A DNA stretch of 64,000 nucleotides from Coleophoma eucalyptorum. Lineage: Eukaryota > Ascomycota > Leotiomycetes > Helotiales > Dermateaceae. Numbering within the stretch: the stretch's first letter is position 1; every line of letters begins with the position of its first letter. The stretch spans positions 1-64,000 of the forward strand of contig JALRME010000023.1 in NCBI GenBank assembly GCA_026120035.1, read 5' to 3'. Position numbers and translations under genes: made by a program. The notes below the pieces were generated by a model, which had not been told where the DNA came from, did no database searches, and saw only the letters and a list, made by a program, of their open reading frames with translations. Below, piece by piece: positions 1-60,349 of the stretch.

Positions 1-99
1 CTAACCCTAACCCTAACCCTAACCCTAACCCTAACCCTAACCCTAACCCTAACCCTAACCCTAACCCTAACCCTAACCCTAACCCTAACCCTAACCCTA
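1..99. repeat. Telomere repeat array (CCCTAA)n
   Basis: Uninterrupted CCCTAA units, about 16.5 copies, run from the first base to about 99, where the array breaks directly into retrotransposon sequence. This is the C-rich strand of a TTAGGG telomere, so the chromosome end lies to the left. The array is perfect, as expected for telomerase-maintained DNA. There is no telomere-associated spacer between it and the element. Confidence 0.98.
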
Positions 100-8104: not shown

Positions 8105-9893
8105 TTATTTCTTTTTCAGAAACAATCGCCATGGGATATGATTAAGTATCAATGCTATAAATAAAACAAGAACAACAAATGGTAGAGGCCAAACACTCTC
8201 TCCAAATCTCTGTATTGCACTAGTGTGTACTATAATGGTACAGAGCATTAGTGCAATACCAAGAACGAAATTCCCAATAATCCCAGTCCACCGATGGCGT
8301 CCTACTGGTTGCTGGTCTTTCAGGAGAGATAACCAAGAAAGAATACTGATAGATATCAATACTAGCCCACCAGAGATAAAGAAATACCCGAAAGCCATTT
8401 CAAATGTCGCGTAGTAAGTATTGATAGTACTGGTTAAATCTAGCTCTTTCTCCGACTCCTCAAATCCAAAGCCGTTAAAGGTACCTGACGCCAACTTCGT
8501 CAAAAGTTTCTCTACGGCAACTTCTGTTTCATTTCTTGTTTCGTTCGAAAAAGGTGAGATTTCTGACAACAAGTGCTGAGCGTCCTCCCAGGTCTTCCAG
8601 GATGCTGGAAATGTTGAATTGAACACTTTATCGACCGCTTTACTGTATATTTCGAAAAGTTGTGCTCGAGTTGAAGTTGAAAATTTGCCGTCCAGAGGAG
8701 TATAGATATTGTTTTGAAAGTATTCCAACAAAAGATGCCAAGTGATAAACTGATTTGTACCTTCCATGAAGAGAACTAGAGAAATGTGGAATGGGAAATG
8801 CAAAAATGCCCAAATTTGCTGTCGGATAGTTCCAAAATGTTCATTTTGAATGTTATCGAAATAATTCATGTATAAAAAATACTATTTATCAATAAATAAC
8901 GTGTTTTCAATATTAGCTGAAAGAACTGTACTTACAATAATTAAGACGGTTGCTATTATTGTTCCAATTGCGTCAGAGGTAAAGCTAAAGCCTCGCTCTT
9001 CGATCTTTAGAATACGTCGGCAAAGCCCAATAATTCCTTCACCCAACTATTTATAAATAATCGGATTAGCTGATTAAAGTGTGTTATATAATTGGCCGAA
9101 AACTTACAATAATTAAGGTTAAGCATGACATTCGCTCAACTAGGCTTGTACCTTTGAAACTCAACGCTCGCCATTTTGCACCAATAGCAATATTGGCAGC
9201 AACCTCGAAAACAGAGATTACATACCAAGCGAGGTAAGCATCGTTTGAAGCATTCAAAAAGAAAGCTGGAACGAGAGAAATATATACAGCTATAGCAACG
9301 GCTAGAGAGCCTAATGTTACTAACATAGGCAATCGCGCTCTAGGATACTTCCATATAAAGAACAAGGTCGAAGCGTACTGAAAGAAGAGAATAATACGAC
9401 TCGACATTAGTAATAAAGTGAGTTGTCGATGTAATTTTTGTCGGGTTCCATCTCTAGGATTTTTCCACTGAGAACCAACAACCGCTATTCCGACCATAGT
9501 TCCAAAATGGCAAGCATGCGCAATACGTTCTACTATGCTATCAGTAGCAAATCTAACGTCGTAAAGTGTCACTTGGCCTATAATGAACTTGAATTAGTTT
9601 CTACTTTTTTAGGTAATATTGTCTACTTACACCATGTAAACCATAGAACACTAAAAAATCCAATATAAGCACTAAGAGCTATACGATAATTAGAACAGTG
9701 TGTTTGTAAAATTTGACCTAGACGTACCCTGATAGCTATTAATTTCGTGAGCCTCAATAAAGGTAGTTAGATTTGCTACAAAGAAAAGATCATAAAACAA
9801 CTGAATATTGGATGTTGCTTCGTGATGTTCAAATTGTGGATTGCTAGAGCTAGTAGAGTCGATTGTCTCAATACCCCGCGACTCATTAGACAA
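8105..9893 (-). CDS. LtrA-family (low temperature requirement A) membrane protein
   Basis: Rebuilt from five exons: 9893-9728, 9678-9631, 9571-9108, 9046-8936 and 8881-8105. Their sum is 1566 nt, giving 521 aa with every junction GT-AG and in phase. The N-terminal motif ELFYDLFFVANLTTF-type (here QLFYDLFFVANLTTF, about residues 31-45), then ALSAYIGFFSVLWFTW and TLYDVRFATDS, are diagnostic of fungal members of the bacterial LtrA family (PF06772). Many hydrophobic segments indicate a polytopic membrane protein. The molecular function of the family in fungi is not established. The gene appears intact. Its stop codon lies 2 bp from a copia LTR, so its 3' UTR must run through retroelement DNA, and a slight C-terminal truncation cannot be excluded. 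Confidence 0.88.
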
Positions 9894-11118
9894 GACTGTT
9901 TGGGTCTTCTCTAAAATATTTTCTTTATTCTGGGGAATAATTTGTTGGTTTTGCTTCTAGTTAGGTTTCGTTAGCGATTTTGATAAAATAGAAATACAAT
10001 ACCCTCGTTTTCTTACTATTGGGCTCTGGACAAAAGGAAGGTGATGGAATGGATGCATCTTGGTAGTGAATACGTAAGAGAATACAGAAATATTAAATGA
10101 AAAGTGAAAATGCCAAAGATTCGGAACGAATTGATATATATATGTTTATATATATTCTGGATCCGAGTAGAAACCTTGAGCTAAGTTCTGCAAGCAGGTA
10201 TGCTAGGATTTAGGCACTACACAGGTACAGATGGGATTCTCACTATTCTTACCTCTCTCGCTTCTATAAAGTGCAGCTACTAAGGCTGGTGCGAGAAAGT
10301 CCGTTTGCGTTTTAGGGTTAAAGTTTGTGGTAGAGAAAGGGGACCTAATTGGTGTGGGCTAATAATTATACAGCACAAAAGGCTGTTATACAAGGATTTT
10401 CACTTACGGTGTCTATTTTGACATTGGTTGGTTATCAAGTCCGCTGCATTATCACTAGAAGACTTTACTACAAGTGTTCTTCTGCTGGCATGAAAATTAC
10501 TAGGTGCATTCTAAAAGAATTGAGAATCCAAGACCTAAAATTCCTTTCCTCAAACTCATCCGAGTAGAACTATTTTCCTCTTTCACTTCTAAGCTCTTAT
10601 TCCTAAGTTTGAAAGTTTATAGTAAAGGTAGCTGAGATGATACTATTACCTTTTCAAACCTAAAATAAATCGTCACAGAAACGAAGGTTTGAAAATGTAC
10701 GCTTTCATCCATCTATGGAAGTCTTTTTATACTAACCTTAGTAACTGCACTGCACTACGAAATTCTAAACTGTTTAGTAAATTGATTTCTTAAGTAACTC
10801 CAACGATATGAGAGCATTGAAGGCTGTTTGCGGTAGGCGCCCTAGAAAACATCAATGTAGAAAGTAGTTCGGTTGATCTAGCGTCGATTCATTTCTGTAA
10901 TCAACTATGTACTAGTAGAGTTTTTCGAATATCTACGTACTACTGACTTATATTTATGAATTTTTTTGACCTCGTGTAAAATTGAAAGTTATTGTGTAGT
11001 ATCATCAGCATATTTCTCTTGAATTAAATATGCCATTAGGCTTGTTGAAGTCCTCCAAAAGGCAAATTAGATGTATTAATGTTCTGCTACTATCATCATA
11101 GCCTGACGCAGAAGGAAG
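9894..11118. other. Intergenic region upstream of LtrA and downstream of the dehydratase gene
   Basis: Contains the LtrA 5' region and the 3' region of the dehydratase gene. A 72-codon open frame at 10349-10567 (plus) lacks any recognisable feature. No repeats matching the rest of the window were seen. Confidence 0.5.
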
Positions 11119-14020
11119 TTACCAATCAATATCAGCATTGAACTCTAGAGCCATCCAAACATCCATCCCTGCGGACTTACTCCCCGCTTGCCATTTATGG
11201 TACGGATACGAGACGATGTTATCCTTTGTCCGGACAGCTTTACCATAACTATCTCTACGCCACATGCCACCATGCTCATGCAAACGTGGAACCTGCAGAA
11301 GCTCAAAAGCCTTATCCGGAAGATCATTCAGTTTTCCACCCGGAATATTCTCAAATTCAGGTCTTAAACGAGCCATCCCACCATTTCCAGTTCCAGGAGA
11401 AAGAGTGATGTGGACTTCTTCTAGAATATCATCGCTGTGGTTATGGACACCACAGTTTACTCCCTGGCCTATAATATGTTAGTGTATGGATGATATTATC
11501 TGAAGGGTATTAGTGCTACCGGCTGTCCAGAACTGGATGTGCGCAATTCTAGTTTGGTCATTGAATCGGAAAGCAAATCCAGACAAATTGTAGAAATCAA
11601 CTCCTTTGAAATCTTTTCCCCACCAAAGTTCTTCAACCTTTTTGAACTTTAAGTCATTGAGTTGGCAACCTGTAGCGGATGTATCGAAGGTCGTCTTGAC
11701 AGGAACTTCAGCTGTAGTTGAATACGTGCTCGGATTGCCGACTGGCGTGAAACGAAGGATAACAGCACCATTATCGTCGGCTTTCATTGAACCCTCTTGA
11801 CACATTATGGACGCAGCCGAAAATGGTTTTATGCTGAGCGGCTTCCTGAATCCTTTGCTATCGCCTACTGCGCCGTATATAACTTTTATACCCTCATCCG
11901 CTTTTACGCTAATGACAGAACTTGGTGGCAGCACTTCTACGGTGATGGCGTAGTGGGCTACTTCAAGAAGTGACTGAACAGCTTGCTCTGTAATATCGGA
12001 TGGGTACGGAAGGTATACTAGGCCTTCTCCTGCCCAGACTGTTGGAGTAATTGGAGACTTTGGTCCAAATTTATCGAGAGGTGTATTCTCATTATAATGT
12101 ATTGTTACTCTCGGCTGAGGCTCTTCGTAGTACCTCGCCACATTATAGGACATCGAAATGAAATCAATATTACCCTTGCCATTAAAGTCACTGGGAATTA
12201 TCAGTGACATGTCCAATCTCTGTGTAGGAGAAACGTACCCAAGAGCAATCCTGGCTGAAGACTCATCTGCAATTTTGTATTTTGCCCACAATCCTTTCTC
12301 AAGGTCGATTGCCTTGTAATACATAATACCCTATGAGAACAGTATTAGAAATACTTCGTTGGCTGCAGGAAACTTGACTCACCTTATATTCATGCGGGCC
12401 AGGTGGTGGAGGAATAGATTCACCGTCATCATCTCTATCCAGAGGTCCGAATAAGGCAAGTAAAAACTCGTCATCGCCATCACCTATTATTGTCTTTAGC
12501 TGTCCTCAATTCCTCTGAATGTGACTTTATATTAATCAAAATACTCACCATCAAAATCTGCACAGACAATGTAGTGTCCAGGACCATCACCAGTATGCTT
12601 GAGCTGGTTGGGGGTTCCATAGACGTCAAGAACTTGACGTCTCCACTCATTACCCTCCATCCCTCGATTTGTCTTAGTATAGACGCAAGCTGTTGTGCCG
12701 TGAAAGGGATCCAGCGTAGCAATATATGCGAAAGGGTCATCTCCAATTCTACCAGCATCTACACATCCGACACCCCAATGATCTCCAGAACCGGGCGATT
12801 CGGAGGTTTCTGACTGACCTGGGCGTCTAGGCTCACCTGGATGTATTAAATCTCGCTTCCATTCACCTTCATCGTAATAAAGTCGCGTTGTTCCCTCTCG
12901 GGAAGCGATGAGCATGGAATCGAGGCCGTTTGGTCCGTCAAACCTTCACGAATTGTTAGCATAGATTCCATAGGAGCAATTTGAAGAGCTACTTCTTTTG
13001 AGCAATTTCATGGATAACTGTAAAGTTTTTATCGTCGATCACGGTAGAAGGCCATTCGGTACTTGCTTAAAGTTAACTCCAAATATGATGGCATCTGTTT
13101 TGGAACCTACGCTTCGAGAAGTTTGTCCGGACACTGAAATCTAATTATTGGAATAGGAGTTGTCTGTTCAAATGGTTTGTTAGTAATAAAAGACCCGAAG
13201 GTAATGTGAACATATGAATACCTTGTCATGTGGGCCGTATACAACAGATGCTGCAATAACTTCCAAGAATGTCCTACAGAACGGTTAGTTCGATTAGATA
13301 CCGAGGAATATATGTCTAGTGCTTACTTTTGGGTGAAAAATCCAGCTTTTATACGATGCATGGCGGGCCATCTTCCTATGTACCTTTCTTTCCAGTATCC
13401 TTTATGGAGATTTTCTCGTCCAGGATTCTCCAACCAAGTCACAAAACCTCCTTTTGGGTGACATTCGAGCATGAATGGCCCATAATCATGACAAATCACT
13501 AGATCCATGAGACCATTTTGAGTGACATCCACTGCAACGACTGCAACTGGAGAGTCGAATTTTCCTATCTCGTACTTTTTCCAACCTAAATGTACATTAG
13601 TCATTCCTATAACCATAATCTTTGCTTGGATCTTTACTTCCAAGGGATTCGAGCTTTTTTGCATTAGAATCCTGGCCATTGACATGGCCATTTGATTGTG
13701 TATGGATTCCGTTTCTACCTTTACCATTTGCATACCCGTTCAGCCCAATTCCTACTTCCTTACTAACTCGCCTTCGACTATGAGACTCAGCAATTGGGTT
13801 GTCAAGAAACTCAATACGGCCGGAAACAAGACCTGACCTAGAATATATTAAATTAAATATTGACACATCAGGGATACTTCTAGGGTTGTACTCACGTAAC
13901 AACACCGGGGACTGGGTCATCTTTGCTAAAGTGGAAAGTCTCCACCCAGTAACCATCCTTACGATCGTCCTCTATGGTCGAGCTAGAAAACTTTGGTGCT
14001 TGGATATTTTTGAATGTCAT
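11119..14020 (-). CDS. Aldos-2-ulose / 1,5-anhydrofructose dehydratase-like enzyme
   Basis: Ten exons: 14020-13896, 13837-13638, 13585-13327, 13273-13222, 13163-13111, 13061-12993, 12943-12549, 12483-12383, 12330-11520 and 11468-11119. They sum to 2415 nt, or 804 aa, with all phases matching. It resembles the Phanerochaete aldos-2-ulose dehydratase (EC 4.2.1.110) in several places: a beta-propeller with a Ca-type loop ADFDGDGDDEF (about 382-392), VTWLENPG, AMHRIKAGFF, AGRIGDD, a cupin-like HNH (about 697-699) in GVHNHSDD, and LHEHGGMWRR. Known members dehydrate glucosone to cortalcerone and 1,5-anhydrofructose toward ascopyrone M and microthecin. The protein ends soon after the second cupin block, so the C-terminal lectin-like domain of the 900-aa basidiomycete enzyme is absent. 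No signal peptide is evident. It is divergent from the glucan lyase gene, which supplies the likely substrate. The exon 2/3 junction (GTAAAG donor at 13637) has an alternative farther upstream in the same phase. Confidence 0.85.
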
Positions 14021-15235
14021 TTTTGCAACTCTAGAAGATCAGGATATAATTGAAGTTGGATAAGTCGAACGAAATTATAATGTTGTCGCATTTTGGATTT
14101 TGAAGGCTCTCTATACCTACATTAGTAACACTTGGTCGCTGAAATCCGAGTTCACATGCGAACTTGAGAATCTGCTTATCCGTGCGCGTCTTAATTTCTC
14201 CAAAAGTATAAATTTAAATCTCTCATCTTGCCGCAAGCAACTTATTCTGCTTTCACACATGCATGCCTGTTTTAAGGATTAGAAATAATGCTCCGCAACC
14301 TTGTTGTTTTCTGAACTGCGCCAGCTGGGCTAAGCTGAGACACTATATAACATGAGCTATAATGAGGCGGCTAGTTACATAAAGATGTGCAGTATTTTTG
14401 TGCTAGACAAGAAACTTTTCAAGGTTTGGATTCTTATTTTTAAATATTTTGCATTTAGGTTCATTGAAAAGTACTGTTTTCGTTCAATGCATCTTTCCCA
14501 TTAAGCGAGCGGTTGAAAACAAGAATGGATTGAAAATTTACGTTTTTGGAGACGTGTGAATGCATTCTATATATGACTTTATTTTAGACATTATGTTAGC
14601 TCATACCCTGAAAATCTTGTTTCCAATACAGTTATGTAAGTTTCGGCCTGTACATAGCGTTCTGATCAGAAATTTGTAAATTCTTCCCATGATATTATGG
14701 AAAGCCACATGGATGCAATCGTGACGTAGTAGGAAACTTTGAATGATGTCCAATAAAATTGCTAGATTACAAACCTTATGCAGATACCCCGCAAATGTAC
14801 TTGGGTCTTTAGAATTCACAGGCCTGGGTCCGGGTATATTTGATACTGTGACAAACTAGCCGGAAATCCCATAGTACTCCTTCAAGGAGAGGTATGCGGT
14901 AAATGATCAGCGACACCAATACAGCGACTGCCTTGCACTATTTTGAAGTTAGTTTTTAAACCAATGAGGTCGACTTACCTTCATCAGTGAGGGAAATATC
15001 TTAGAATCACTGATGATACTGAGAACGGAAGAATGCGTTTAGATCTGCCCAGAGAAAATGGGATAGGCCTTATTAAGTCAATCATTTTCAATACGCCAAA
15101 ACATGTATATATTGCCTTATTGATATTTTCAATTTTTAATTGAGTCTTTATTTTTTCTGACTTACAATAATTATCTTTCCTACGAGCTAATACCTTTTGA
15201 TCACTACTTGTTAGGGCAAATCACTAGAAATCGCT
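14021..15235. promoter_or_regulatory. Shared divergent promoter region of the dehydratase and glucan lyase genes
   Basis: A 1215-bp region separates the two start codons and contains no convincing gene. A 72-codon frame at 14601-14819 (minus) has no recognisable content. Head-to-head placement suggests co-regulation, which is an inference. I did not identify a specific operator by eye. The final 150 bp before the lyase ATG are AT-rich with pyrimidine tracts. Confidence 0.5.
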
Positions 15236-18200
15236 ATGCCTTTCATTAACGAATTCAAGCACAGTGTGGATCACAAGGATCAAGACTTAAATAACCTGGA
15301 TGAGAAGATCAACAATCCCGAATTTGATCCTTATACTTTTGTTAAAGCTGAGGACTTTTTTGAGGATAAGGGTACTTTCAACCGTCCATTTAAGGTAGAG
15401 GAATGCGTAAAGAGTGACGGTAGTTTTGATTCAATTTTACAACGAGGCGCAATTTTTCGATTCAACGACAAGACTTTGCTCCTGGTTCAATTCATTCGTC
15501 CGAAAGTATGGCGAATTCGTTTTCACGCAAACCACTCTCATCCGTCAGAGTATAGCGACTTTAACACGTATGTTTTAATGAAATCTAAAAGCAGGCGAAT
15601 CAATTAATAATATATTTAGTCGAACCATTATCTGTGATACTCTTACCAAACTTAGGGATACTCTCGATCGCCATGAAGACATCTATTGGCGTACCAAAAT
15701 CAGCGAGACTGAGCCAAGCTACTGCCTTGAATCGGTGCAATATGCAAGCAAAGGCGATATGGATATTGATAAAGACGGCCAGTCGATAATTCGTCTCTAC
15801 ATTGAAAAAGATCCATTTCGCATGACCGCTATTCGATGCCTAGACTACACTGAATGTGCTGATACGGAATGGATGTCTCACTTCGATGCATCACAAAGTC
15901 ACCATCCGGGAGCTAGTACTGACAAGATTATCTGGAGAACAATTAAAAAGCCACTTCGATGGAAAAGACTCGGCGACAGTATAGCGACAATATTAACAGT
16001 AACCAAGCCTGGCTCTTCCAAATATATTGGTAAAATCACCGCATCCGCAGAAATGAGCTTTCATACATGATCTAATATTCAGTAGGGTTTGGAGAGCAGG
16101 GTGGCAAATCCCTCCTCAAGAAGTCGACTTATATGAACTACTTTGGTTGGTCCATTTCCTATTTCAAAATTTGTAATTGTGCTGAATATTGAAAAAAAAA
16201 AACAGATTATGATAATATGCTATATAACGGCGTTTACGGAAAAGGGCCTCTTGACGAACGAGAGCCTCTCTATCATTCCGAGCCATTCTGGATTGAATTA
16301 AACAGGCACCAAGGCATGAAATCAAAAGTTGCAACCTTTATTGATAATTACTCTCAAATTTGCCTAGATTTTGGCAAGACGAACACTAGAAAAATTCGAA
16401 CCGGTGTCCGATTTGGTTCGCTACAATATTATGTCATAGCAGGTGATGATGTGCCTGACTTGATCAAGCTATACACTTCCATGATCGGCCGGCCACATCT
16501 AAAGCCTCGCTATGTTCTGGGTCACCACCAAGGATGTGAGCACTAAATACATGACATACGACGAGAAATATAAATCGCTAATGAATTAAGGCTATGGGTA
16601 TGACACTCAAGAAAAAGTGTTGAAAATAGCTGAAAAATATCGACAACGACAATTTCCGTTAGATGGTATGCACATAGATGTTGATCTACAAGATAATTAT
16701 CGAACCTTCACCACATCGCCTCAGAATTTTCCCCAAGCGAAAGAGATGTTCACTACTCTTCGTAAAATGGGAATTAAGTGCAGTACGAATATCACCCCTG
16801 TAATCAAGAACGAAGATACTGCTCAAGGAGATTATAAGACTTTGCAAGAAGGATTGGAACAAGGGTATGTGGAACTCTTGATATCTCCAGATAAAAATTG
16901 ATTAAATATAGTCTATTTATCAAAGACGTACGAAAGACCTCGGATCTTCCGTGCCAGGCCTCTGATGTTCGTTATATTCATTACGTAAACGGGCAACGGG
17001 TTCGTATAAATCCCAACGACTTATCCAAAATGGACTGGAGTAGCAATACAAACTACATTGGAGATTATGCAGACCATAACTAGTGAGCATCTTTGAATTG
17101 GTACAGTGGGGATTTCTGACACCAAATCTAGCCAGTTCAAAAATATCTATAACAGTGGCAGAGAATATCATGGAGGGGTATCATATGGAGAAAATCTAGG
17201 AACTCCGGGCTTCTACCCAGATCTCAACCGAACTGCGGTTCGCAAGTGGTGGGGCCAACAATATTCTGATCTGTTTGATAAAGGTCTTGAATTCGTTTGG
17301 CAAGATATGACATCGCCATGCGTGAATATAGCATATGGTGACATGAAAGGGTTTGTTACATTGGTTGAAATTCAATAGCCTCATAGCTGACGAGCCGAAC
17401 AGGTTTCCATTCCGATTGATGATAAACTCTGATGGATGGAGCCAAGAGGCATCTCGAAAACACAAAAAGACGGCTATTGAGATGTGGTCGCTGTACAGCT
17501 ATAATCTCCACAAAGCAACTTTTAAAGGCCTGGAAAAGTTACCACAAAGAAAGGGCAAGAGAAACTTTATTATTGGCCGAGGCAGCTTTGCAGGAATGCA
17601 CAGATACGCTGGCCTTTGGACAGGTGATAATGGTTCTACGTGGGACTTTTTCAGGATATCCGTTGCACAAGTCCTTGCGGCAGGACTCTCAGGTGTTTCA
17701 ATCACAGGCGCCGATGTGGGAGGATTTATGCCGTCGCAAGATCCTGCTACCCACATCAATGATCGATATGCAGACCCGGAACTTTTAATCCGTTGGTATT
17801 GTGCTTACTCAATGCTTCCTTGGTTCAGGTAAAAATTAATTGCAATCTCGCAAAACTTCATTGATCACTAACAAGCACTAGAAATCACTACCATGGCAAA
17901 GTTGATGCAGGTATGAAATGGTTTCAAGTAAGCTCCCGGTTCGCAGTTTCACTTTTATAAGTCACTTACAGTATGTTAGGAACCATTCGTATACACAGAG
18001 CATTTTGAAAAGAATCAGGATACGCTCAAAGACCAAGAATGGTTGTATAGATCAGTCGAGCCTGTTTGTCGCTATTTTATTGAACTTAGATATACACTGC
18101 TTCAGCTTTTATACGATGCAATGTTCGAGAATCAAATAACTGGCCTTCCTATTGCGCGAACACTGGTAAATCTTAAGACTTCCAAGTCCTGCATTTAAAC

Positions 18201-19278
18201 TAATTCTTTTCAGATTGTCACAGATACTCTTGATGATTCACTATTCACTGATTCAAGTGAATTTCTGAATAATCAGTATATGGTCCGCCAAGACCTACTG
18301 GTGTGCCCGATCATGGATCCTCAAGTTCGCCCAGATAGCAATGTGACTAGCAGTCTTGGTAAACGAGACATTTATCTCCCACAACCAAACAAGTGGTATG
18401 ACTTCAACTTGCGAAATATGACAGACGGCTCTTTGGGAAAGCCTCTGACTGAAGTTCGAGATGGTGGAGAGACCGTCGAATGGGATGGGTCCATTAATAG
18501 CGATATTGAGCATATTCCGTATATTACACCTATGTTCGTGAGAGCAGGTAAGATACAATAATAGAGCCTTTAATGAGGTAAATGAGCTAAAGATGAATAA
18601 AAATTAGGCGGAATAATTCCACAAATTCCTGTTCGTCAATATATTGCTGATGCCGAAAGACCTGGTCCTGTTACTCCAATAACAATTCACGTATACCCAG
18701 GAAGATCCAATGTAAGCACGCATGAATTAGGGGAGGTGGTGGAAATACTAAATTATGATAGACATACCGAATGTTTCTAGACGATGGGCTGAGTAGAAAG
18801 AGTGCTCCTGTAGAGTCTCTTTCAGTTGCAGCAGCAACCAGTGGACAGATTCAAAACAAGTCACTTCAAGATATTCAAGCGGCCTCGGAATACCGTGAAG
18901 TTGAAATCAAGCAGACATGGACTGTAAGTTATTACAACCACTTCGTACGCCAACAAAATAAAAACTAATCGATGTCTCCCCATTCAGCCTACTCTGAAAG
19001 ATAAGACAACCACCGGAAAAAAGCTTTCTGGTTGCCGATATGTCACAGTAAAGACTTTGCATGATGGTTATAATATAGATAACATCATTAAAGCCATCGG
19101 AAAAACGTACGAGGTTGTTCTATGGCATTCCGTTGGGGTGAATATGGACTCTGTCCATGTTAAGCCAGGATCTGAGTTGCAAATTCGTACAAACTATGCT
19201 GCCCGCGCTACTGTTGTAACTATTCCTGTCGAGCCTGTTGGGGATATTTCTATTGACTGTAGTTTCAGCTACAGTTGA
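15236..19278 (+). CDS. Alpha-1,4-glucan lyase (GH31), 1,5-anhydrofructose-forming
   Basis: Fourteen exons: 15236-15567, 15620-16029, 16086-16145, 16206-16535, 16591-16864, 16912-17039, 17107-17350, 17403-17828, 17882-17927, 17980-18165, 18214-18547, 18608-18711, 18762-18923 and 18988-19278. They total 3327 nt, or 1108 aa, all in phase; Morchella lyases are about 1070 aa. Shared landmarks with those lyases include MNYF, LDEREPLYHSEPF, IDNYSQI, MFTTLRKMGIKCSTNITPVI, GVSYGE and FYPDLNR. The GH31 nucleophile motif FVWQDMTSP gives Asp about 578, and GADVGG gives Asp about 697. The QDMT form (rather than hydrolase WNDMNE) marks lyases. The enzyme cleaves starch or glycogen from the non-reducing end by elimination, releasing 1,5-anhydro-D-fructose. 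There is no signal peptide, so it is probably intracellular and acts on glycogen. The exon 6 donor (GTAGCA at 17040) is weak; without that intron the frame hits stops, so this junction needs RNA evidence. Confidence 0.92.
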
Positions 19279-19977: not shown

Positions 19978-22114
19978 TCAAATCCCGGATTCGTCCTGCA
20001 ATGCGCCTGCAGGTGTATTAACTGTATCATAATATGTCGTCCATTCATCGCATTGCTTGTTGATTTTGGGCAAAACTTTATACTTCTCTAATAGAGGGGC
20101 AATTTGATGAGGCATTTCGATAAACTGTAGTGCCATGCCAGAAGAAGCATGCCAGGGATTATGGCAGTGCATCAACCAAGTCCCCGGATTATCAATTTGG
20201 AATGCTATCATCACATACCCGTTTACATCTAACATCACGGTGTCTCGTCGAGCTGGATTTCTCAAATTCAGCTCCACTGCTGAAGCGTTGAAAGGATCAG
20301 AACCTTGGGCAAGAATGACAAAATCATGACCATGAAGATGCATCGGATGGTTTGCTCGGAAAGGTCTGCGGTCGGGAATGTCCTGTGTGTAGTTTGACTC
20401 GATGAGATAGTATACCCAGTCATCTTGCGGATAGTCCAGGAGTATCGGAGCATAGGCTTCTGGAAAACTACTTCCTGTAGTATCATTATTATCATTAACG
20501 AGTTTTAAACTTGGCTCACTCCAGTTCAAGTAAAGTGAAGTATTCGCCAGGATCCATTTGTGAAGTGGCCCGTTTAAATCTGAGATGTTTGGATAGCCCT
20601 GCAACGCTATATAGAGATAATCTTCGGGAGATACGTTGTTGATAGGAGAACCCACAGTCCTTGGTACCACTGGGATAAGTGATGTGGCAGGTGGATCGCG
20701 GCAGCCGAATAAAGCCTCGTTATTTTCTGTTTTAGGTGTATGCGGAATTTCTGTGTAGTTTTCATCATAGCTAATTATTCCTAATGTTGATATGGCCGAA
20801 ATGTTTTGGCAAGGCCTGGCATGCATCCAGAAATTTGTGCCGTATTCAAATGATGCATTTGCCTGAACAATGATGTCATATCGTTGACCTAAAATTTTTC
20901 CATATTAGAGTTTCATCAATTATAGAGTGGAAGCTTGCTTAACTTACCAATGGCCACATTAACTGTGCTTGTAATGTATGGCTCAATGGCCACAAAATCG
21001 GTACCAACGACAGTGAAGTTGTGACCATCAATCCAAAATTTAAACTGCGTACTAACTCCAGTATTGACTAAACTCATTTTATATGTTTTTCCACTTTCGA
21101 AATTGACTGTATATCGTTCTTGTATATCCGTGCATGTCGTATCTGGACTACAATTAAAAACTCCCTTGCCATTCATGAGGTACGAGTCTGGATTCGGCGG
21201 TTCACCCTCAAGTTCTTTGTGATAGACTGATGATGCTGGTTTATGTAGCCAATCCGTAATAAGAATAGGTCCAATGTCGATATCATAATCCATGTTCGTG
21301 GGACCATTAAACTTCATAGCTCCTATGAACAAGATTAAAATTACAAAGGTTGTTAAATGTGTCAACATAAGCTCACCAACTAGTCCGTCGGGATCTATAA
21401 AAGTTCAGCATTAGTTAGCATTAAATGAAAACAGACTTACATTGTAGCCCAAAATGACTATGGTACCATGAAGTCCCATATTGTCTTACTCGGAATTCAT
21501 ACGTATGTACAGATCCTGGCTATGCTACGTTAGTATTCTTGCTCTCTTTTCAACCATAATAACCAGACTGTAATAGGGCACTGAGTAACCCCTGGAGTTC
21601 CATCTTCCCAATTCTCGTCAAGCATTCGGACACCATGAAAATGTATAGTCGTTCCGTTATAGTTCGTTAAATTATTGTATAGGTTTACTCCTAGGACGAT
21701 GGTTTAGTACGTGCATGTTTTTCACAGTTACATTTACTTACGAACTTTATCTCCCCAGTTTGCTTCAATGACGGGTGCTGGATATTGACCATTTATAACC
21801 ATGGCAGGTTTCGAAACTCCATCAGGAGCTATCTGCATATTTGTAGCAACGAGATCAAACTGTTCAGTAACATGAATTGGTGAGTGATTACTTCTTATAC
21901 GTTATGTACAACTAACAACTCTGATGATGCCCGTGAAGGGCGTAACAACCATATAGTCTGTGCTGATGTCGTAATCTCCCCATGCTGATCTATTTGCTGA
22001 CGAGTGATTTGGAGGATGTGGAAGCTCGCAACCACAGTCGCATATTGCTTTGACCGTTGTTATTGAAAGAAATAGTAAAATCGTAAAAGTAATCCTACAA
22101 AACATGACGAACAT
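19978..22114 (-). CDS. Laccase-like multicopper oxidase, secreted
   Basis: Seven exons: 22114-21920, 21859-21742, 21690-21569, 21519-21441, 21394-21377, 21322-20948 and 20888-19978. They sum to 1818 nt, or 605 aa. A hydrophobic N-terminus ([14 protein letters not shown]) is a likely signal peptide. All four copper motifs are present: HFHG (about 121-124; usually HWHG), SWYHSHFG (about 163-169), HPMHLHGH (about 483-490) and [12 protein letters not shown] (about 543-554). The residue ten after the T1 Cys is Met, as in low-potential multicopper oxidases; Leu or Phe is usual in high-potential laccases. Many N-glycosylation sequons fit secretion. Two donors, GTTGTT (intron 1) and GTCTGG (intron 3), are non-consensus but give the only in-phase joins. 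It is tail-to-tail with the lyase gene. Substrate is unknown; candidates are phenols, and possibly reductone-like pyrones, as inference. Confidence 0.9.
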
Positions 22115-23059: not shown

Positions 23060-23575
23060 TGTCGGAATGGTATTTGTTGGTTGATCTATATACCTCTTAT
23101 TTCAACTGTAATAGACAGGTCAAAATGGTAAGGTAAAAATACAGATGATGATTCTAAGTGAGTAGGTGTGATGGAGGTCATATAAATACCGCTTCTGGGT
23201 ATCGATTCGACCTCCGTAGCAATACAGTTGTAGTGTTTGCATCCGAGCGCAAACACGGGAACAAGCAAGTGGTATAGCGATATTCCAAATGTATGCACAT
23301 ATAGGTGGTTTAGCGATATACCAATATATGCAAGTGGTGTAGCGATGTTACCTTACGTGCAGGTGGTATATCGATGTTCCAACATATTACTCATATTTTT
23401 TATGTGACTGAATCACATGATCTATCATGTAACCATATTTGTGTAAGGGGTATATCCCCCCTTTTTTACTTTACTTTCGATAAAGACAATAAGAACTACC
23501 TACAACACCGTATACCCTGTAATTGAATCCTGTGATACCATTACGACTTCTGCCCGTTGTAAACGTATACTAAAA
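23060..23575 (+). repeat. LTR family D, split by an LTR family B insertion
   Basis: TGTCGGAATGGTATT at 23060-23074 continues after the family-B LTR at 23385 (tattactcatat) and runs to about 23575 (aaacgtatac, with a decayed end). The rejoined order matches family D at 7913-8102 and the reverse copy at 25068-25255, including the shared block ctacctacaacaccgtataccc. Confidence 0.65.
23075..23384 (-). repeat. Solo LTR family B, copy 1
   Basis: A 310-bp LTR bounded by TGTTGG and CCAACA. It contains several degenerate units of roughly 30 bp built on a gtggtatagcgatattcc core. It was inserted in the older family-D LTR. The internal open frame at 23086-23298 is LTR-derived. Confidence 0.8.
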
Positions 23576-25255: not shown

Positions 25256-25480
25256 GTTCTGTTGGAATATCGATATATCTACCACCTACACGTGAGGTCA
25301 CATTGTCACGCCTCATGTAGGTATTGGTATATCGCTACGCCACCTGTAGGTGTATACACTTGGAATATCGCTATACCACTTGCTTGTTCCCGTGTTTGCG
25401 CTCGGATGCAAACACTACAACTGTGTTGCTATAGAGGTCGAATCGATACCCAGAAGGGGTATTTATAAGACCTCTATCAC

Positions 25481-25785
25481 TGTCGGTATATCATTATTGG
25501 ATCTCGATCTCGACCTCGATCGAACACTCGTTCGTACTTACTACAAACACCACCTGTTTGCAACTACGTAGTACTACGAACAAGAGGTCGGATCGATGCC
25601 TACATTACGTAGCATTACGAACGGAGGTTGAATCGATACCTATTCTGGTTGTTCTACAAACAGATGAAGGTATTGATAAGACCTCCATCACACTCACTTA
25701 GAACAGAGAAAAAAAGGGATATACACATTTTACCTTACGCATTTTGACTGTTATTGGTATAGCTGAAATAAGAGGTATTCTAATA
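25481..25785 (+). repeat. 5' LTR of the copia element
   Basis: Begins TGTCGGTATATC and ends GGTATTCTAATA (decayed CCAACA). Same length as the 3' LTR. The downstream leader starts ctgattagtgcatagatcagg, a possible primer-binding region; a related leader occurs at 40183. Confidence 0.9.
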
Positions 25786-29800: not shown

Positions 29801-31369
29801 TAGAGCACTCCGTCATTCGTAGTTTCCCGCCAAAAGGAGGTCGAAGGACTAGTTAAAAAGGGTGTATTCCAGCTCGTTGACGTTAAGCATATACCATCGA
29901 ACATCCGAGTATTCAACTCTTGATTCGTCGATAAAGTCAAGAATCCCGGGTCGAAGGAAGCTTACGAGAAGTCAAGATTGATAGTACAAGCATATAACGA
30001 TACTCGTAAAGATCTTATGCTCACCCAATCGCCTACAATTCAGCGAATGAGCCAGAGACTCATTCTTAGCCATACGGTAATGCTCTAGGATAAAAACATA
30101 CACCTATTCTTACGTGATATCTCATAAGTATACGTTCAATCGAAGACCACCCTAAATAGAGACTTCTACATCCGAGCACCACGCGAGCTTTGTATAGCAA
30201 TGGATGCGGATGTAGGCTCTATTATGAAAGTTATTCGACCCTTGTATAGTATTCCTAAAGCTAGAAACCATTGGTTCAGCATATATCACAAACACTATAT
30301 TTAGGAGCTCCATATAGCCCAATCTACGTACGATTTATGCTTACTATATATCAATTCGCCTGACGGAGCACTTAGAATAGTAGGCTTACAAACTAACGAC
30401 ACCCTATTCCTAGCCAATGAATCGTTCGCTATTATAGAGTAATTAGCAGTCGATAAAGCCTAATTTCCTACAAAGGACCGTGAGCAATTGACACCTAATC
30501 ATCCAATCAAGTTCAATAGTAGTATCATCAAATTGGTAGGAACCGACATCTAATTAACTTAGGAACGCCATTATAAGAACCTCAAATTGGTTAATATCAA
30601 GGAGGTTATATCAAGTACCAATTCAAGAGGCACCGTACGCTCTACCCTTACACCAAAGGATCAATACGTTGCTCAAAGAGCCAGAGGTGCTTATATTACC
30701 TCTATATATCAACCAGAGGTATCGTTTGACCTCTCTGTTGCTACCCAGGTGGTCAACCCTATAGAGAACGATACCAAGCTGCTTAATAAGCATATTCAGT
30801 AGCAATTAGATAACTATACCAGAGGTCTTACCTTTGTCAAATTGGACCTATTGACACTCAAATTGGTCGTATTTACTAATGCATCCTTTGCTAATAACAA
30901 GGACCTTAGTTCCTAGATTGGGTTCGTATGTATGCTTGCAGATACTTAGAATAGAGCCAATATCATTCATTAGAGCTCGACCAAGTACAAGAGGGTTATA
31001 CGTAGTGTTCTTGCCTCCGAACTATACGCTATTATTTATGGATTCGACATCGGTACGGTACTAAAATCGATAGTCGAATTACAGCTCAATATCAAGTTAC
31101 CACTAGTCTTATGCACGGATTCCAAATCGATATACGAATGCCTCGTCAAGCTGGGAACCACACAAGAAAAGAGGCTTATGATCGATATTATATACCTCCG
31201 TCAGTCGTACGAAAGACGGGAAATTGCCGAAATCAAGTGGATTGATGGTAGTAACAACCCTACTGATTCTATGACCAAGAGTAATCCTTCATTAGCTCTA
31301 AAGCAATTGATCGATACGAATCGAATCAACCTACATAGAGTGGAATGGGTAGAAAGAGTAAGTAGTTAA
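29801..31369 (+). pseudogene. Copia reverse transcriptase-RNase H remnant
   Basis: Reverse transcriptase motifs include FVDKVKNPGSKEAY, SRLIVQAYND and a catalytic box read as QTNDTLFLA. The usual form is QTDDTL, so one catalytic Asp has become Asn by G-to-A, consistent with RIP. RNase H follows, with SELYAIIYGFDIG, LCTDSKSIYECL and IKWIDGSNNPTDSMTK. The last open piece (31178-31369) ends at a TAA just before the 3' leader. Confidence 0.85.
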
Positions 31370-31496
31370 AAAAGGGGATAGTACGTATACTTTACCTCGT
31401 ATATAGCACTCGGTATTAAACTTAATATTCTTATTTTACTTCGAATTTGGGTCTTTTGGAACACATGGATTCTTCTCTATAAAAGAGAGTTCCCAG

Positions 31497-31801
31497 TGTC
31501 GGTATATCATTATTAGATCTCGATCTCGACCTCGATCGAACACTCGTTCGTACTTACTACAAACACCACCTGTTTGCAACTACGTAGTACTACGAACAAG
31601 AGGTCGGATCGATGCCTACATTACGTAGCATTACGAACGGAGGTTGAATCGATACCTATTCTGGTTGTTCTACAAACAGATGAAGGTATTGATAAGACCT
31701 CCATCACACTCACTTAGAACAGAGAAAAAAAGGGATATACACATTTTACCTCACGCATTTTGACTGTTATTGGTACAGCTGAAATGAGAGGTATTCCAAC
31801 A
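31497..31801 (+). repeat. 3' LTR of the copia element
   Basis: Begins TGTCGGTATATC and ends GGTATTCCAACA. It is almost identical to the 5' LTR, so insertion was recent or both were mutated alike. Followed by the ATCAC target duplicate. Confidence 0.93.
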
Positions 31802-32414: not shown

Positions 32415-33422
32415 TTACTTGGTACGGCTAACGGATTCGTGACTAGTAGAGTCGTCCACTTTGGCTTTCTGGCCGGTAGGAATATACCAATAGAAAAATC
32501 CATTAATAGCAGCTCCCGTAATATCACCGGCCCAGTTGATATAGTGATAATGGAGATCACCGCCCGCGGCCATTAGCCCAAAACACCTCGCAGGGTTTAC
32601 AGAGGCACCAATATAACCATTTCTCACAAAGCTGCTACAGAAAGACACGAGCGCGACTGAAAATCCGACAAGGATTGGCGCAAGAGATGGTCCCACAACA
32701 AGTCTCTGTCGTGGATCAAGACCCACTCCGAAAGCAAGATACACAAGGCAGAGCGAGCAGAGGGTTTCGATTACGTAGGCAGATGCTGGCGATATTAGAG
32801 CCGGATCCATGTAGCAACCTCCAAGATTCTTGATAGGAAGAGGACGACCACCGAGGGCGGCGCGAACAAGAAATGAGCCAATCACTCCTCCGAGGAGCTG
32901 AAACGACACATAAAGAACCATTCTAGGGAAAGTTGCCAGGCGAGCGAAGAATGTAGCAATAGTGATAAGCGGATTGAGGTGTCCGCCGGAGACGGGACCG
33001 GAGACATAAATAAAGAGTGAAAGACTTATGAATGTCTCCGTGGCACCTATCAGTGTTGGAATAAAGCCACGGAGACTGAAAGCATCATAGAGTTGAGCTA
33101 CAGCAAGCGTTGTAAGACCACTGAGAAACACAAACATACATGTAGCCCAGCATTCGTAAAGAGCTTGCTTCCATAATTCGTGCCCACGAAAAGATTGCAA
33201 GGAGAAGCTTTCTCTCCACGTAATATAGGGTGAAGCATCGGGAGTTTGGTGGAGAACATGATCGCGGCCTGGAGTATTCTGTGTCACAGCAAACTGCTGG
33301 TTTCCACCAATTCGACCGGCAAACGGTCTTGATATTACATGAGTAAAATGGCCATGACCGAAGGAATGGCCTCTTTCCTCATCAATGATGGTAGCAGGAT
33401 GTTTAAATAATAAAGCTGCCAT
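32415..33422 (-). CDS. Aquaporin of the X intrinsic protein (XIP) type
   Basis: A single 335-aa exon. The MIP fold is clear: six hydrophobic segments and two half-helix boxes, SGGHLNPLIT (NPL at about 150-152, replacing NPA) and ASVNPARC (about 274-280). The Cys after the second NPA (NPARC) together with an altered first box is the published signature of the XIP subfamily of plants and fungi. XIPs often pass uncharged solutes such as glycerol, urea or H2O2, or metalloids; the exact substrate cannot be read here. A long cytosolic N-terminus of about 85 residues is His/Gly-rich at its start. ATG at 33422 is the first of the frame. The gene is intact. Confidence 0.9.
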   Translation of the reverse strand: MAALLFKHPATIIDEERGHSFGHGHFTHVISRPFAGRIGGNQQFAVTQNTPGRDHVLHQTPDASPYITWRESFSLQSFRGHELWKQALYECWATCMFVFLSGLTTLAVAQLYDAFSLRGFIPTLIGATETFISLSLFIYVSGPVSGGHLNPLITIATFFARLATFPRMVLYVSFQLLGGVIGSFLVRAALGGRPLPIKNLGGCYMDPALISPASAYVIETLCSLCLVYLAFGVGLDPRQRLVVGPSLAPILVGFSVALVSFCSSFVRNGYIGASVNPARCFGLMAAGGDLHYHYINWAGDITGAAINGFFYWYIPTGQKAKVDDSTSHESVSRTK

Positions 33423-34834: not shown

Positions 34835-35152
34835 TTGTTGGTTGATCTATATACCTCTTATTTCAATAGCTGTGATAGACAGGTCAAAATGGTAAGGTAA
34901 AAATTAAGATGATTCTTCTAAGTGAGTGTGATAGAGGTCTTATAAATACCCCTTCTGGGTATCGATTCGACCTCCGTAGTAATACAGTTATATATAGTGT
35001 TTCCGCCTAAGCGCAAACACGGGAACAAGCAAGTATTATAGCGATATTCCAACTCTATACACCTATAGGTGGCGTAGCGATATACTAATACCTACATAAG
35101 GCGTAACGATGTTACCTCACGTGCAGGTGGTAGATATATCGATATTTCAACA
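34835..35152 (-). repeat. Solo LTR family B, copy 3
   Basis: About 318 bp from TGTTGGTTGATC to ATTTCAACA in reverse orientation. It closely follows copy 1 at 23075, including the gcgatattcc-type subrepeats. It lies about 125 bp past the stop codon of the ENA gene. Confidence 0.8.
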
Positions 35153-35277: not shown

Positions 35278-38200
35278 TTACTCCCGTCTCCTTGTCGCTG
35301 GTGCTGAGCTCAACACCGCCGATTCGACCACTCTGTCCTTCGCAAGGTAGTTTGAATCCACACTTCCAGAGCTTAATCCAGTGCTCCTACGTGCCAGTCT
35401 CTTGATAGAACCAGTTCTAGTCTTATGTATGTGGAAGAATCCCTGTCTTAGACCTAACTTCCTCTTTTCATTCTCCTCAAACCGCTGCTCTTCACTATGC
35501 TCAAAAAGGCCATAACATCTCTTGATAGCTTTCCAAGCCTCAACGCCAATAACGAAAACAATCATGCCGCCAACAGATAGTGACCATTCCCAACTGATGC
35601 CAATGTGCTTGAAGACCTTGGTATTCAATCCGGGGATGTACACAGCTGGGAAAACGGAGAGAGCACCAATAATGACGGCAAGGAATAAGAACTTGTTCTC
35701 GTAGACATCCTTGAAGAATGGAAATTTGCTCTCTGATGTTGGATCTAGACGGAACATGCTGCGACGGATAGACTTGAATTCCCAGGCTGAGATAAGTATT
35801 ATCCAAGTCAATTCAGCAAAGACAGCTGCACGTGCTTTGAAGACCGAGTTACAAGATTCGCTATAATCGCGATTGCAGTCTTCACCAAGCTTTCCCTTGT
35901 AAGCACCATAGATGATGATGATGAATGTAAAGAGCGTACAGACACCCATAAGAATACCATAGATAACCATGTCGACGAGAATCTGGATTGTAAAGACACC
36001 ACGTTTAGCATCATGAGGTGGTCGTCTCATGATATCTGAGCTCGCCTTCTCTCGTCCAAGTCCGAAAGCAGGGAAAGAAGATGTAATCATATTGATCCAG
36101 AGAATCTGCAAAGGACTAAGCGGGAAGACGGAAGATTTATTATGGTCCTGAAAGCCAAGCCCGGCGATCAAAAGGATAACTTCGCCGACGTTAGAGCAGA
36201 GCAGATGGAGGATGAATTTCTGGATATTGTCGAACATACGTCGACCTTCCCGGACTGCAGATACGATACTGTTAAACTTGTCATCTGTAAGCACAATCTT
36301 AGCTGCTCCTTTAGCAACATCAGAGCCGGCCATTCCCATTGCAATACCAACATCTGCTGAGCTTAGACTAGGTGCGTCATTGACGCCGTCACCAGTCATA
36401 GCCATAAAGTGGCCGCGGCGACGGAGGGCCTCGATCATACGGGTCTTGGTGTCTGGAGCGCATCGTGCAATAACAAGAGGCAGCTCGGGCATAGCATCAA
36501 TTTCGGCGATAGTCATGCTATCAAACTCGGTGGCTTTCTTAACAATAGATTCAGATATATCCTTTGGAAGAATATTAAGGTTTTCGGGAATAATGCCAAT
36601 TTCTTTAGCAATTGCTGTAGCAGTTGCTGGGTGATCTCCCTATTATTCTTTTAGTTGCTTCTAAATTATATAGAGTTGTTGTGGATAAAGACCTACTGTA
36701 AGCATATGCACCTTGATACCCGCTCTTGAACATTCTCGAATAGCGTCTTTAGTCTCCTCGCGTGGAGGGTCATAGATACCAACCAGTCCAAGAAGAGTCA
36801 GATTTTGTTCAACCTCCTCTCTCAGTTTATGTTCCACATCATCCTTGCAGTTTGAAAATTCGCCGTCCCAGGTTCTCATAGCAACCGCCAGGACTCGTTG
36901 ACCTTGGCTAGCAAATTCATCCATCTGCTTGATTACTTTCTTCTTCAGACTATCGGCTATAGGTTCACTGTTTGAACCGCTACCAACAGAGGAGCAAAGA
37001 TCGAGGATACGCTCTACTGCACCCTTAGTGAAAATAAAGTTGGTGTTACTTTCAGGCTCCTTATAGACCACAGTCATGCGCTTGATACTACTATCAAAGG
37101 GGAATTCAGAAATCTGTTTCCAACCCTGAGATTCTAACCATTTCTTTCCATATTTGAATCGATGTGCAAAGACTTGTAGAGAAATTTCTGTTGGTTCACC
37201 AGTAGTTTGCCACTTCTTGGCCTGGGTGCCTTCAACTTTCTCCTGGGCCACGGTTGCTAGGTTGCACAGTGCTGTTGGCTTCAGAAAGGTTTCCAGGTCC
37301 GGGGTAAGCACAGCTTCTTCGTCTTCTAATGTTCTCTTGCCCTCCAGCTCAATATCTTTTTTAACTTCGTCAGCTGGTACATCGAACTTGAGGACAGCAG
37401 CACCCTTCTGATCGGCATAGTCATATGTCTCATCAGGCTTTGCCTCTTGAGACGCCGTTTCAGATCGTCGGGTGACATTTCCTTCGGTTGGATTATTTGG
37501 ATCCATAGAATTATTAACAGTAAATATACCGACTTTTGGAATCCAGACTTTCTTTACAATCATAGCACCTTGTGTGAGCGTACCAGTTTTGTCTGAACAA
37601 ATGTTGGTAACGCCCCCAAGGGCCTCAAGTGCTGATAGGTCTCGGACGACTACATTTGCCTTTCGCATAACAGTCATTCCGACAACCATTGTAATTGTAA
37701 GTACCCTTTTTAATGAGTCAGTAGGTAATTCAATGGGAATAGGTTGAAGGAATAGGAAAATTTACGCGATTAATGATTCGGGGATAATGGCAATTCCAGT
37801 AGAAATAGCATAAATGGCAACCTCATCAGTCTGAAAGAATCATGATTAGCCAGATTCTAATTCATTATCCAATTAATAAAATAAGGGTTAAGTACTACTT
37901 ACGACATCGAAGCGGTTGACAGCGAACACAATAATAGCAAGTAGGATTGCACAGCCAAACAGAATATAAGCGACTTTGGACAACTTCCGCTGGAGCGGGG
38001 TACCTTCAGTAAGACCTAAAAACTTTCCGGCGAAGTCGTATATTCGAAGGATAAGACCTTTTGCGGGCTGGATTTTACCGTATTTCTTAAAGTTCATTGA
38101 TCGTCCCGGCTTTCGAATTTTCTTAGTAGTTGATCTAGCGATCTTACCAACTTCTGTATCCATACCAGTAAAAGTAACAATTCCACGTCCGCGGCCTTTT

Positions 38201-59581: not shown

Positions 59582-60349
59582 CTGACAACAGCGTTAATCA
59601 ATGTTTTCGGTAGATCCATGCTTACCATCTCAATACCTGTGTATATCGTCGAGCCATCTTGTCACACTACCAGGACAAGTAGCGCTCTAGTATATTATGA
59701 ATGAGCCCTAGGAAATATAGAAAAATGAAAAGAGCCTAATGATATAGTACAAGTGGTTTTGGACAGAAAAGATGAATATCGACAGAATAACAAGTCGAGC
59801 AGTAACAGTTGTAGTTGAAAGAGATCCCTTGACTCACATGCGGCTGAGTATGAGGGCGAGATCAAAATTGAGACTTTGAACTACTGCAAGACGCTATGGC
59901 TGAGTGGAAAAAGCAGTACCAAGGCGGTCATAGGCGTCCTATAAATTTCAGCTCATAATCCATTTTACTGCGCCCAGAAGCGCCACACTTCAGGACGCTA
60001 TAAGACTTCATGAACAAGAACTCCTAATGAGATAACTTAAAATTAGTTTTATCTTCCGGCTCATTCAGCTCTGCCCTAGAAGGAAAATTAGCAGCGCGGT
60101 TCTCGGCTCCCTAGGCCATCCCGACTAAGCATGCCTGGTTTAGGTAGACTTCCTTTTTACGGTTTGGATATGTTCACTTTAATCAAGAGCTTAACTTTTT
60201 GTTTGCAGCAGAATTGCGAGTTCAGGTTTAAAGTTAAGCAAGGTATGTCTTCCTCGTTGAGCAACCAGATGGTTTTCTATAGTATACAACTTTAGCTTAA
60301 TGAGAATAGAGTTCAGGAGTTACTCACAATTAGCCATATTGAGGACCAA
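59582..60349. promoter_or_regulatory. Upstream region of the chitin synthase gene
   Basis: Contains a probable 5' UTR intron (donor GTAAGC at about 59624, acceptor CAG just before the ATG at 59581). An upstream ATG at about 59656 would run into a stop after splicing, so it cannot extend the protein. No other gene is seen. Confidence 0.45.

Follow-up and report, generated by a model that had tools for sequence, protein, structure and literature searches.

A head-to-head glucan lyase and dehydratase gene pair near a chromosome end of Coleophoma eucalyptorum and its predicted glycogen-to-pyrone pathway

Two described systems come closest to the gene pair reported here. The anhydrofructose pathway of Pezizales is known from Anthracobia and Morchella, and a glucan lyase, an anhydrofructose dehydratase and an ascopyrone tautomerase were reportedly purified from Anthracobia melaloma, going by the title of Yu et al. 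2004. In the second system, pyranose 2-oxidase and aldos-2-ulose dehydratase (AUDH) are said, again in a reference title, to form a route to cortalcerone; pyranosone dehydratase is presumably the AUDH kind of enzyme. The oxidase and dehydratase genes of wood-decay basidiomycetes are adjacent, and the pair has been suggested to make the pyrone antibiotic cortalcerone from sugar (PMC4256170, in the passages available). The window analyzed here is the first 64,000 nucleotides of a contig of Coleophoma eucalyptorum (C17:1-64000; genome of 45.26 Mb in 101 contigs). It contains two intact, divergently transcribed genes, one for a GH31 alpha-1,4-glucan lyase of the Morchella-type clade and one for a relative of AUDH. 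Together they probably constitute a two-gene pathway leading from glycogen through 1,5-anhydrofructose to the antibacterial pyrones ascopyrone M and microthecin. The predicted reactions are those of the Pezizales pathway, but whereas the latter is known as purified enzymes (as the title has it), we find a linked, co-inherited gene pair well beyond Pezizales. The basidiomycete pair likewise consists of two adjacent genes, the second encoding a dehydratase. The difference lies in the first enzyme, which is a flavin oxidase on glucose in the basidiomycetes and a GH31 lyase predicted to act on glycogen in the window.

The dehydratase gene is on the minus strand and the lyase gene on the plus strand, with their ATGs 1,215 bp apart, so the two genes are divergent. 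An earlier note, made from the letters of this stretch, had placed the pair here, head-to-head across 1.2 kb and near a telomere. All of this holds: the two spliced models end with their stop codons at positions 11119 and 19278, the strands are opposite, and the contig opens with a CTAACC array at 1-99, which puts the pair about 11 kb from the chromosome end. The same note had called both rebuilt frames open throughout, which is true once the introns are removed at splice sites predicted from the sequence, each model then running to a single terminal stop. All 23 introns of the two genes are GT-AG, 22 of them 47-65 nt long and one 178 nt. A chance origin is excluded by Pfam matches on single exons of both genes, with E-values down to 8.8e-54. 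The stretch between the ATGs is presumed to be a bidirectional promoter region, in which a scan for CreA-, AmyR- and stress-type motifs gave two matches, both of the CreA type. It should be mentioned that the PDB, homologue and genome searches and the alignments used the first gene models, which differ from the final ones by 16 residues (dehydratase) and 1 residue (lyase). Trees and distances were computed from the corrected 746-aa and 1,114-aa models.

PF01055 and PF21365 match the lyase exons over their curated cut-offs, and Glyco_hydro_31_2nd matches with an E-value of 7.4e-31. The segments W-Q-D-M-T and G-D-N-x-S-T-W are invariant in the 10 aligned lyase rows; we take WQDMT to be the nucleophile motif and GDN the acid/base motif of the lyase. 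WQDMT recurs in 119 of the 120 lyase homologues listed, out of 459. The red-algal lyase 2x2h also has a GH31 domain and carries FVWQDMT, but its sequence is remote, and in the tree it sits on a saturated branch apart from the clade of fungal lyases. In the seven distinct GH31 loci of the fungus's own genome, WNDMNE, WIDMNE or WIDMSE was found in three, and the pattern had no match in the other four. The lyase is single-copy: the window locus accounts for 11 of 21 whole-genome matches, the remaining 10 being GH31 relatives at 26-40% identity. A first model of 1,115 aa had one surplus residue at a tandem acceptor and was corrected from the alignment.

In the lyase tree, which took 45 of the 120 listed homologues, the window protein and Morchella vulgaris Q9UVZ1 belong to a single clade of all 46 fungal rows (SH-aLRT 95); Q9UVZ1 is presumably a characterized lyase. 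Outside this clade are the red-algal lyase and the frames of five own-genome GH31 loci, mostly on saturated branches. Each of these loci was represented by its longest open frame, that of L004 (334 aa) being of presumed GH31 identity. The earlier note had named a grouping with GH31 hydrolases as the result that would speak against a lyase, and the window protein does not group with the own-genome GH31 frames. If the GH31 protein were an alpha-glucosidase or a transglucosylase, no 1,5-anhydrofructose would be formed. The PDB search with the single sequence points in that direction, as it ranks a hydrolase, maltase-glucoamylase, first (four stretches summed) and the red-algal lyase fourth, and many sources call the homologues alpha-glucosidase. 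Q9UVZ1 itself is an 'alpha-glucosidase' in UniRef but an 'alpha-1,4-gluc...' in our homologue list. When the PDB is searched with a profile of ten fungal sequences, the red-algal lyase rises to second. Given the WQDMT motif and the nesting of the window protein with Q9UVZ1 apart from the own-genome GH31 frames, there seems to be hardly any chance that the enzyme is a hydrolase or transglucosylase, and we continue with a lyase.

The earlier note had also named a grouping of the second protein with unrelated FG-GAP/cupin proteins as a refuting result. This did not occur either, as propeller and cupin both match AUDH. AUDH_Cupin PF18637 (E 8.8e-54 and 2e-43) and AUDH_beta_propeller PF22301 (E 3.4e-31 and 3e-15) were found on the dehydratase exons by Pfam, all over cut-off. 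The sole PDB sequence matching the dehydratase is the Phanerochaete chrysosporium AUDH 4a7k, with an E-value of 4.3e-106 for the 762-aa first model, and the beta-propeller plus cupin architecture of that enzyme (PDB 4a7k, 4a7y, 4a7z) is also that of the window protein. Residues 8-757 of the 762-aa model align with residues 19-732 of the chain, the metal motif being aligned. In all 12 rows of the alignment, the cupin residues H655, H657, E664 and H666 (numbered as in the 762-aa model) are unchanged. The corresponding pattern H-x-H-x6-E-x-H, which we take to be the metal motif of the AUDH cupin, is present in 64 of the 72 dehydratase homologues tried. The earlier statement that catalytic and metal residues are kept is thereby borne out in both proteins. 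All eight whole-genome matches of the dehydratase fall in the window locus, which is the one AUDH-cupin locus in the genome. The 762-aa model had retained an in-frame intron of 48 nt, a stretch missing from 11 aligned relatives, and was replaced.

The search for dehydratase homologues returned 82 proteins, and the tree used 46 of these 82 rows. One of the homologues, P0190, is an AUDH-type protein from a record of the bdelloid rotifer Adineta vaga; its alignment spans 97% of the query at 37% identity, and a transfer into animals is possible. P0190 and its unnamed relative P0192, the pair chosen as outgroup, are split from the 45 other dehydratase rows by a fully supported branch. A further set, P0193-P0202, consists of proteins some 420 aa long, either bacterial (including Streptomyces) or unnamed, in which the AUDH propeller is present and the AUDH cupin is missing.

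In the proposed pathway, the lyase would eliminate 1,5-anhydrofructose from glycogen ends, and the dehydratase would take this product, not glucosone, as its substrate and turn it into ascopyrone M and microthecin. The shared 1.2-kb region would drive both genes. Within the first 46 residues, no strongly hydrophobic stretch occurs in either model, and we therefore expect the two enzymes to be cytosolic, acting on stored glycogen and not on external starch. A glycogen synthase gene is present in the genome, so the fungus is probably able to make glycogen. Conversion of 1,5-anhydrofructose by fungi to ascopyrone and microthecin, with antibacterial activity, is described in the accessible part of PMC12441222, and the two products are likewise named in that of PMC2974679.

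The substrate of the dehydratase has an alternative in glucosone (2-keto-glucose), which is used in wood-decay basidiomycetes, and the linkage with the lyase would then be indirect. The adjacency of pyranosone dehydratase and pyranose 2-oxidase genes in Phlebiopsis gigantea and several wood-decay fungi (PMC4256170, available passages) is in favor of this substrate. However, the recurrent companion of the dehydratase in ascomycetes is the lyase, and in the window, too, the neighbor on one side is the lyase and not a pyranose 2-oxidase. No pyranose oxidase in this genome exceeded the family cut-off in an exon-wise six-frame search, which spliced genes can escape; TIGR02462 gave one match of 23.8 bits, on another contig, against a cut-off of 544.9. 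This makes glucosone the less likely substrate, although the 14 control genomes, in which none exceeded the cut-off, do not show the power of the search in fungi. We consider glucosone quite improbable and retain 1,5-anhydrofructose as the predicted substrate.

Identical enzymes would be expected if the pair were catabolic or protective, the dehydratase clearing reactive 1,5-anhydrofructose that arises as a by-product or fuel intermediate, with the pyrone as a dead end and no defence compound. Such a role would agree with the ten neighboring frames scanned, which include no recognized small-molecule exporter or pair regulator (four are a multicopper oxidase, an aquaporin-like protein, a P-type ATPase and a chitin synthase, and six are without a match), though such a function may yet belong to the membrane-like gene at 8108-9956. 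It agrees less well with the antibacterial activity of the products, which is in print (PMC12441222, accessible part), and with the near-telomere site, which would suit an accessory trait better than housekeeping. A purely catabolic or protective role thus appears unlikely. We favor a product that may serve chemical defence or competition as glycogen is spent. The pathway interpretation of the earlier note is supported, with the catalytic chemistry predicted from sequence.

The pairing of the two genes extends to other ascomycetes. For each protein, the length of the longest contig holding it was recorded, and equal length was taken to mean the same contig. The comparison covered 119 of the 120 listed lyases (one is without a contig) and 72 of the 82 dehydratases, the propeller-only P0193-P0202 being excluded. 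At least 18 lyase-dehydratase pairs are on contigs of identical length under the same species name, and a matching contig exists in 17 of the 20 species that have a named match in both homologue lists. These pair counts are lower bounds, because 339 lyases lie beyond those listed. By chance, 0.78 pairs would be expected over all rows of the 20 species with 40-Mb genomes (1.04 at 30 Mb, 0.52 at 60 Mb), and 10 of the 18 shared contigs are shorter than 400 kb. The locus tags are consecutive in Cercophora (OQA88_11655/11656) and in Monosporascus (DL765_009769/009768). Tricladium varicosporioides has two pairs on two contigs, P0006/P0128 and P0034/P0139. As a control, 120 chitin synthase rows were listed; none of 83 contigs equals in length a contig of either list, and two more of >10 kb (P0226, P0246) match none of the 119 lyase contigs. 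The control carries little weight, as the lists have few species in common. NCBIfam models run on the Kalaharituber pair gave GH31 models far below their cut-offs for the lyase and no match for the dehydratase.

Judged from sequence, the lyase-dehydratase pairing is general in ascomycetes, more so than was visible to the earlier note. Its statement that the enzymes are known mainly from Pezizales, basidiomycetes and red algae is too narrow, as relatives of both proteins are spread over several ascomycete classes. Its suggestion that the linkage may be undescribed is uncontradicted in the open literature: no description of a lyase-dehydratase linkage was found among titles, abstract beginnings and text passages, a scope that takes in few subscription papers and so falls short of proof. 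Within that partial text, the apparent novelty beside the known enzymes is a linked, co-inherited glycogen-to-pyrone gene pair.

Co-inheritance was evaluated with 18 pairs and the window pair. The lyase and dehydratase distance matrices correlate with r 0.77, a value reached in 0 of 9,999 permutations, and the two trees have 11 of 16 splits in common, compared to a mean of 0.36 and a maximum of 4 in 500 label shuffles. Kin species would give some tree agreement by descent, so the groupings that cross classes are the telling cases. In both trees, the window pair joins Kalaharituber pfeilii, a Pezizomycete (lyase 96/97, dehydratase 87/99). Tricladium, a Leotiomycete, is divided: copy 1 joins the Dothideomycete Lepidopterella (84/82 and 87/85), and copy 2 falls within a group of Sordariomycetes, the class of Thelonectria and Monosporascus (100/100 and 88/86). 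It is noted that the lyase tree gives Kalaharituber a long branch and that just 5 of 16 dehydratase forks are starred. The congruence of the trees, including the class-crossing splits, indicates that the pair was inherited as a unit, and suggests either that it passed from one class to another or that parallel losses removed old duplicates. The chitin synthase of the window has its best-scoring named matches among such fungi as Mollisiaceae and the Leotiomycete Acephala, whereas the lyase and the dehydratase alike group with Kalaharituber, a Pezizomycete. The contrast would suggest a transfer of the pair into this genome, which we do not claim, since this single marker is too little.

It is quite conceivable, though we stop short of calling it probable, that the pair is a mobile two-gene antibiotic cassette, in which a lyase and an AUDH-type dehydratase have been kept and passed on jointly, partly between classes (Pezizomycetes, Leotiomycetes, Dothideomycetes, Sordariomycetes). 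Fungi would thus have given the pyrone-forming dehydratase two unrelated first enzymes, pyranose 2-oxidase acting on glucose in wood-decay basidiomycetes and glucan lyase acting on stored glycogen in ascomycetes.

Several points weigh against the pathway and its joint inheritance as proposed here. The window dehydratase is without the last ~170 residues of the Phanerochaete AUDH. The latter chain has 900 residues and runs that far past the match, where the window protein ends, as do 8 of 9 aligned non-rotifer relatives (within some 20 residues). The positions of the hydrolases and of the red-algal lyase in the lyase tree are unsure because the branches are saturated, the long ones being ~9-10. 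A secretome table of Morchella importuna includes GH31 proteins named alpha-1,4-glucan lyase (PMC8185036, in its accessible part), so that a cytosolic site should not be assumed too readily. Linkage on one contig is deduced from equal lengths, adjacency elsewhere is read from the two locus-tag pairs, and orientation and distance are known for the window pair alone. Colletotrichum tofieldiae, Elsinoe australis and Peziza echinospora (3 of 20 species) have no pair on one contig, which may reflect different assemblies or a real separation. Finally, the tree places the window AUDH with Kalaharituber, yet their raw identity of 64% falls slightly short of the 66% that it shares with Lepidopterella.

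The features of the window are collected in Table 1. Tail-to-tail with the lyase gene is a multicopper oxidase gene (Cu-oxidase_2, laccase/ascorbate-oxidase-like; exons 19981-21404, minus strand), with no sign of belonging to the pair. Beside the dehydratase gene, hydrophobic frames on the minus strand (8108-9956) resemble one multi-exon membrane protein; two of the frames were scanned and had no Pfam match at E 0.001. Direct repeats of 300 nt at 25478-25777 and 31494-31793 are 98% identical and 6,016 bases apart, and the short frame between them (30974-31366) is RNase-H-like by eye, with no Pfam match. Repeats and frame are possibly a young LTR (long terminal repeat) retrotransposon. They are flanked by a second set of direct repeats of 141 nt at 23231-23371 and 34995-35135, 83% identical and 11,764 bases apart.

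Table 1. Positions of the gene pair, its parts and other features in the 64,000-nucleotide window
Feature	Position	Strand	Details
Telomeric CTAACC repeat	1..99		16.5 copies, tandem repeat, 100% matches; contig start
AUDH-like dehydratase gene	14020..11119	minus	746 aa, 11 exons; spliced model
Dehydratase exons 1-6	14020-13896, 13837-13764, 13585-13327, 13273-13222, 13163-13111, 13061-12993	minus	
Dehydratase exons 7-11	12943-12549, 12483-12383, 12330-12239, 12190-11520, 11468-11119	minus	
AUDH cupin domain region	11137..12054	minus	PF18637 matches; contains His-x-His-x6-Glu-x-His motif
Intergenic region common to both genes	14021..15235		Between the two ATGs; 1,215 bp; GC 36.7%
Alpha-1,4-glucan lyase gene (GH31)	15236..19278	plus	1,114 aa, 14 exons; spliced model, homologues, tree
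Lyase exons 1-7	15236-15567, 15620-16029, 16086-16145, 16206-16535, 16591-16864, 16912-17082, 17132-17350	plus	
Lyase exons 8-14	17403-17828, 17882-17927, 17980-18165, 18214-18547, 18608-18711, 18762-18923, 18988-19278	plus	
GH31 TIM-barrel region	16593..17835	plus	PF01055; FVWQDMTSP (presumed nucleophile Asp), WTGDNGSTW (presumed acid/base Asp)
Aquaporin-type MIP gene	32418-33422	minus	
P-type cation ATPase gene	36664-37761	minus	
Chitin synthase gene	57746-59593	minus	

If the proposed pathway is correct, the anhydrofructose pathway, known through enzymes purified from fungi, would gain a gene and a native substrate for its dehydratase step. What has been an obscure branch of glycogen breakdown would become a widespread, genetically linked trait open to detection in genome searches, and every ascomycete with the pair would be predicted to make ascopyrone or microthecin from glycogen. 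The two pairs would then be a clear example of how a single enzyme family was recruited twice, next to a different and unrelated partner in each of two fungal phyla.

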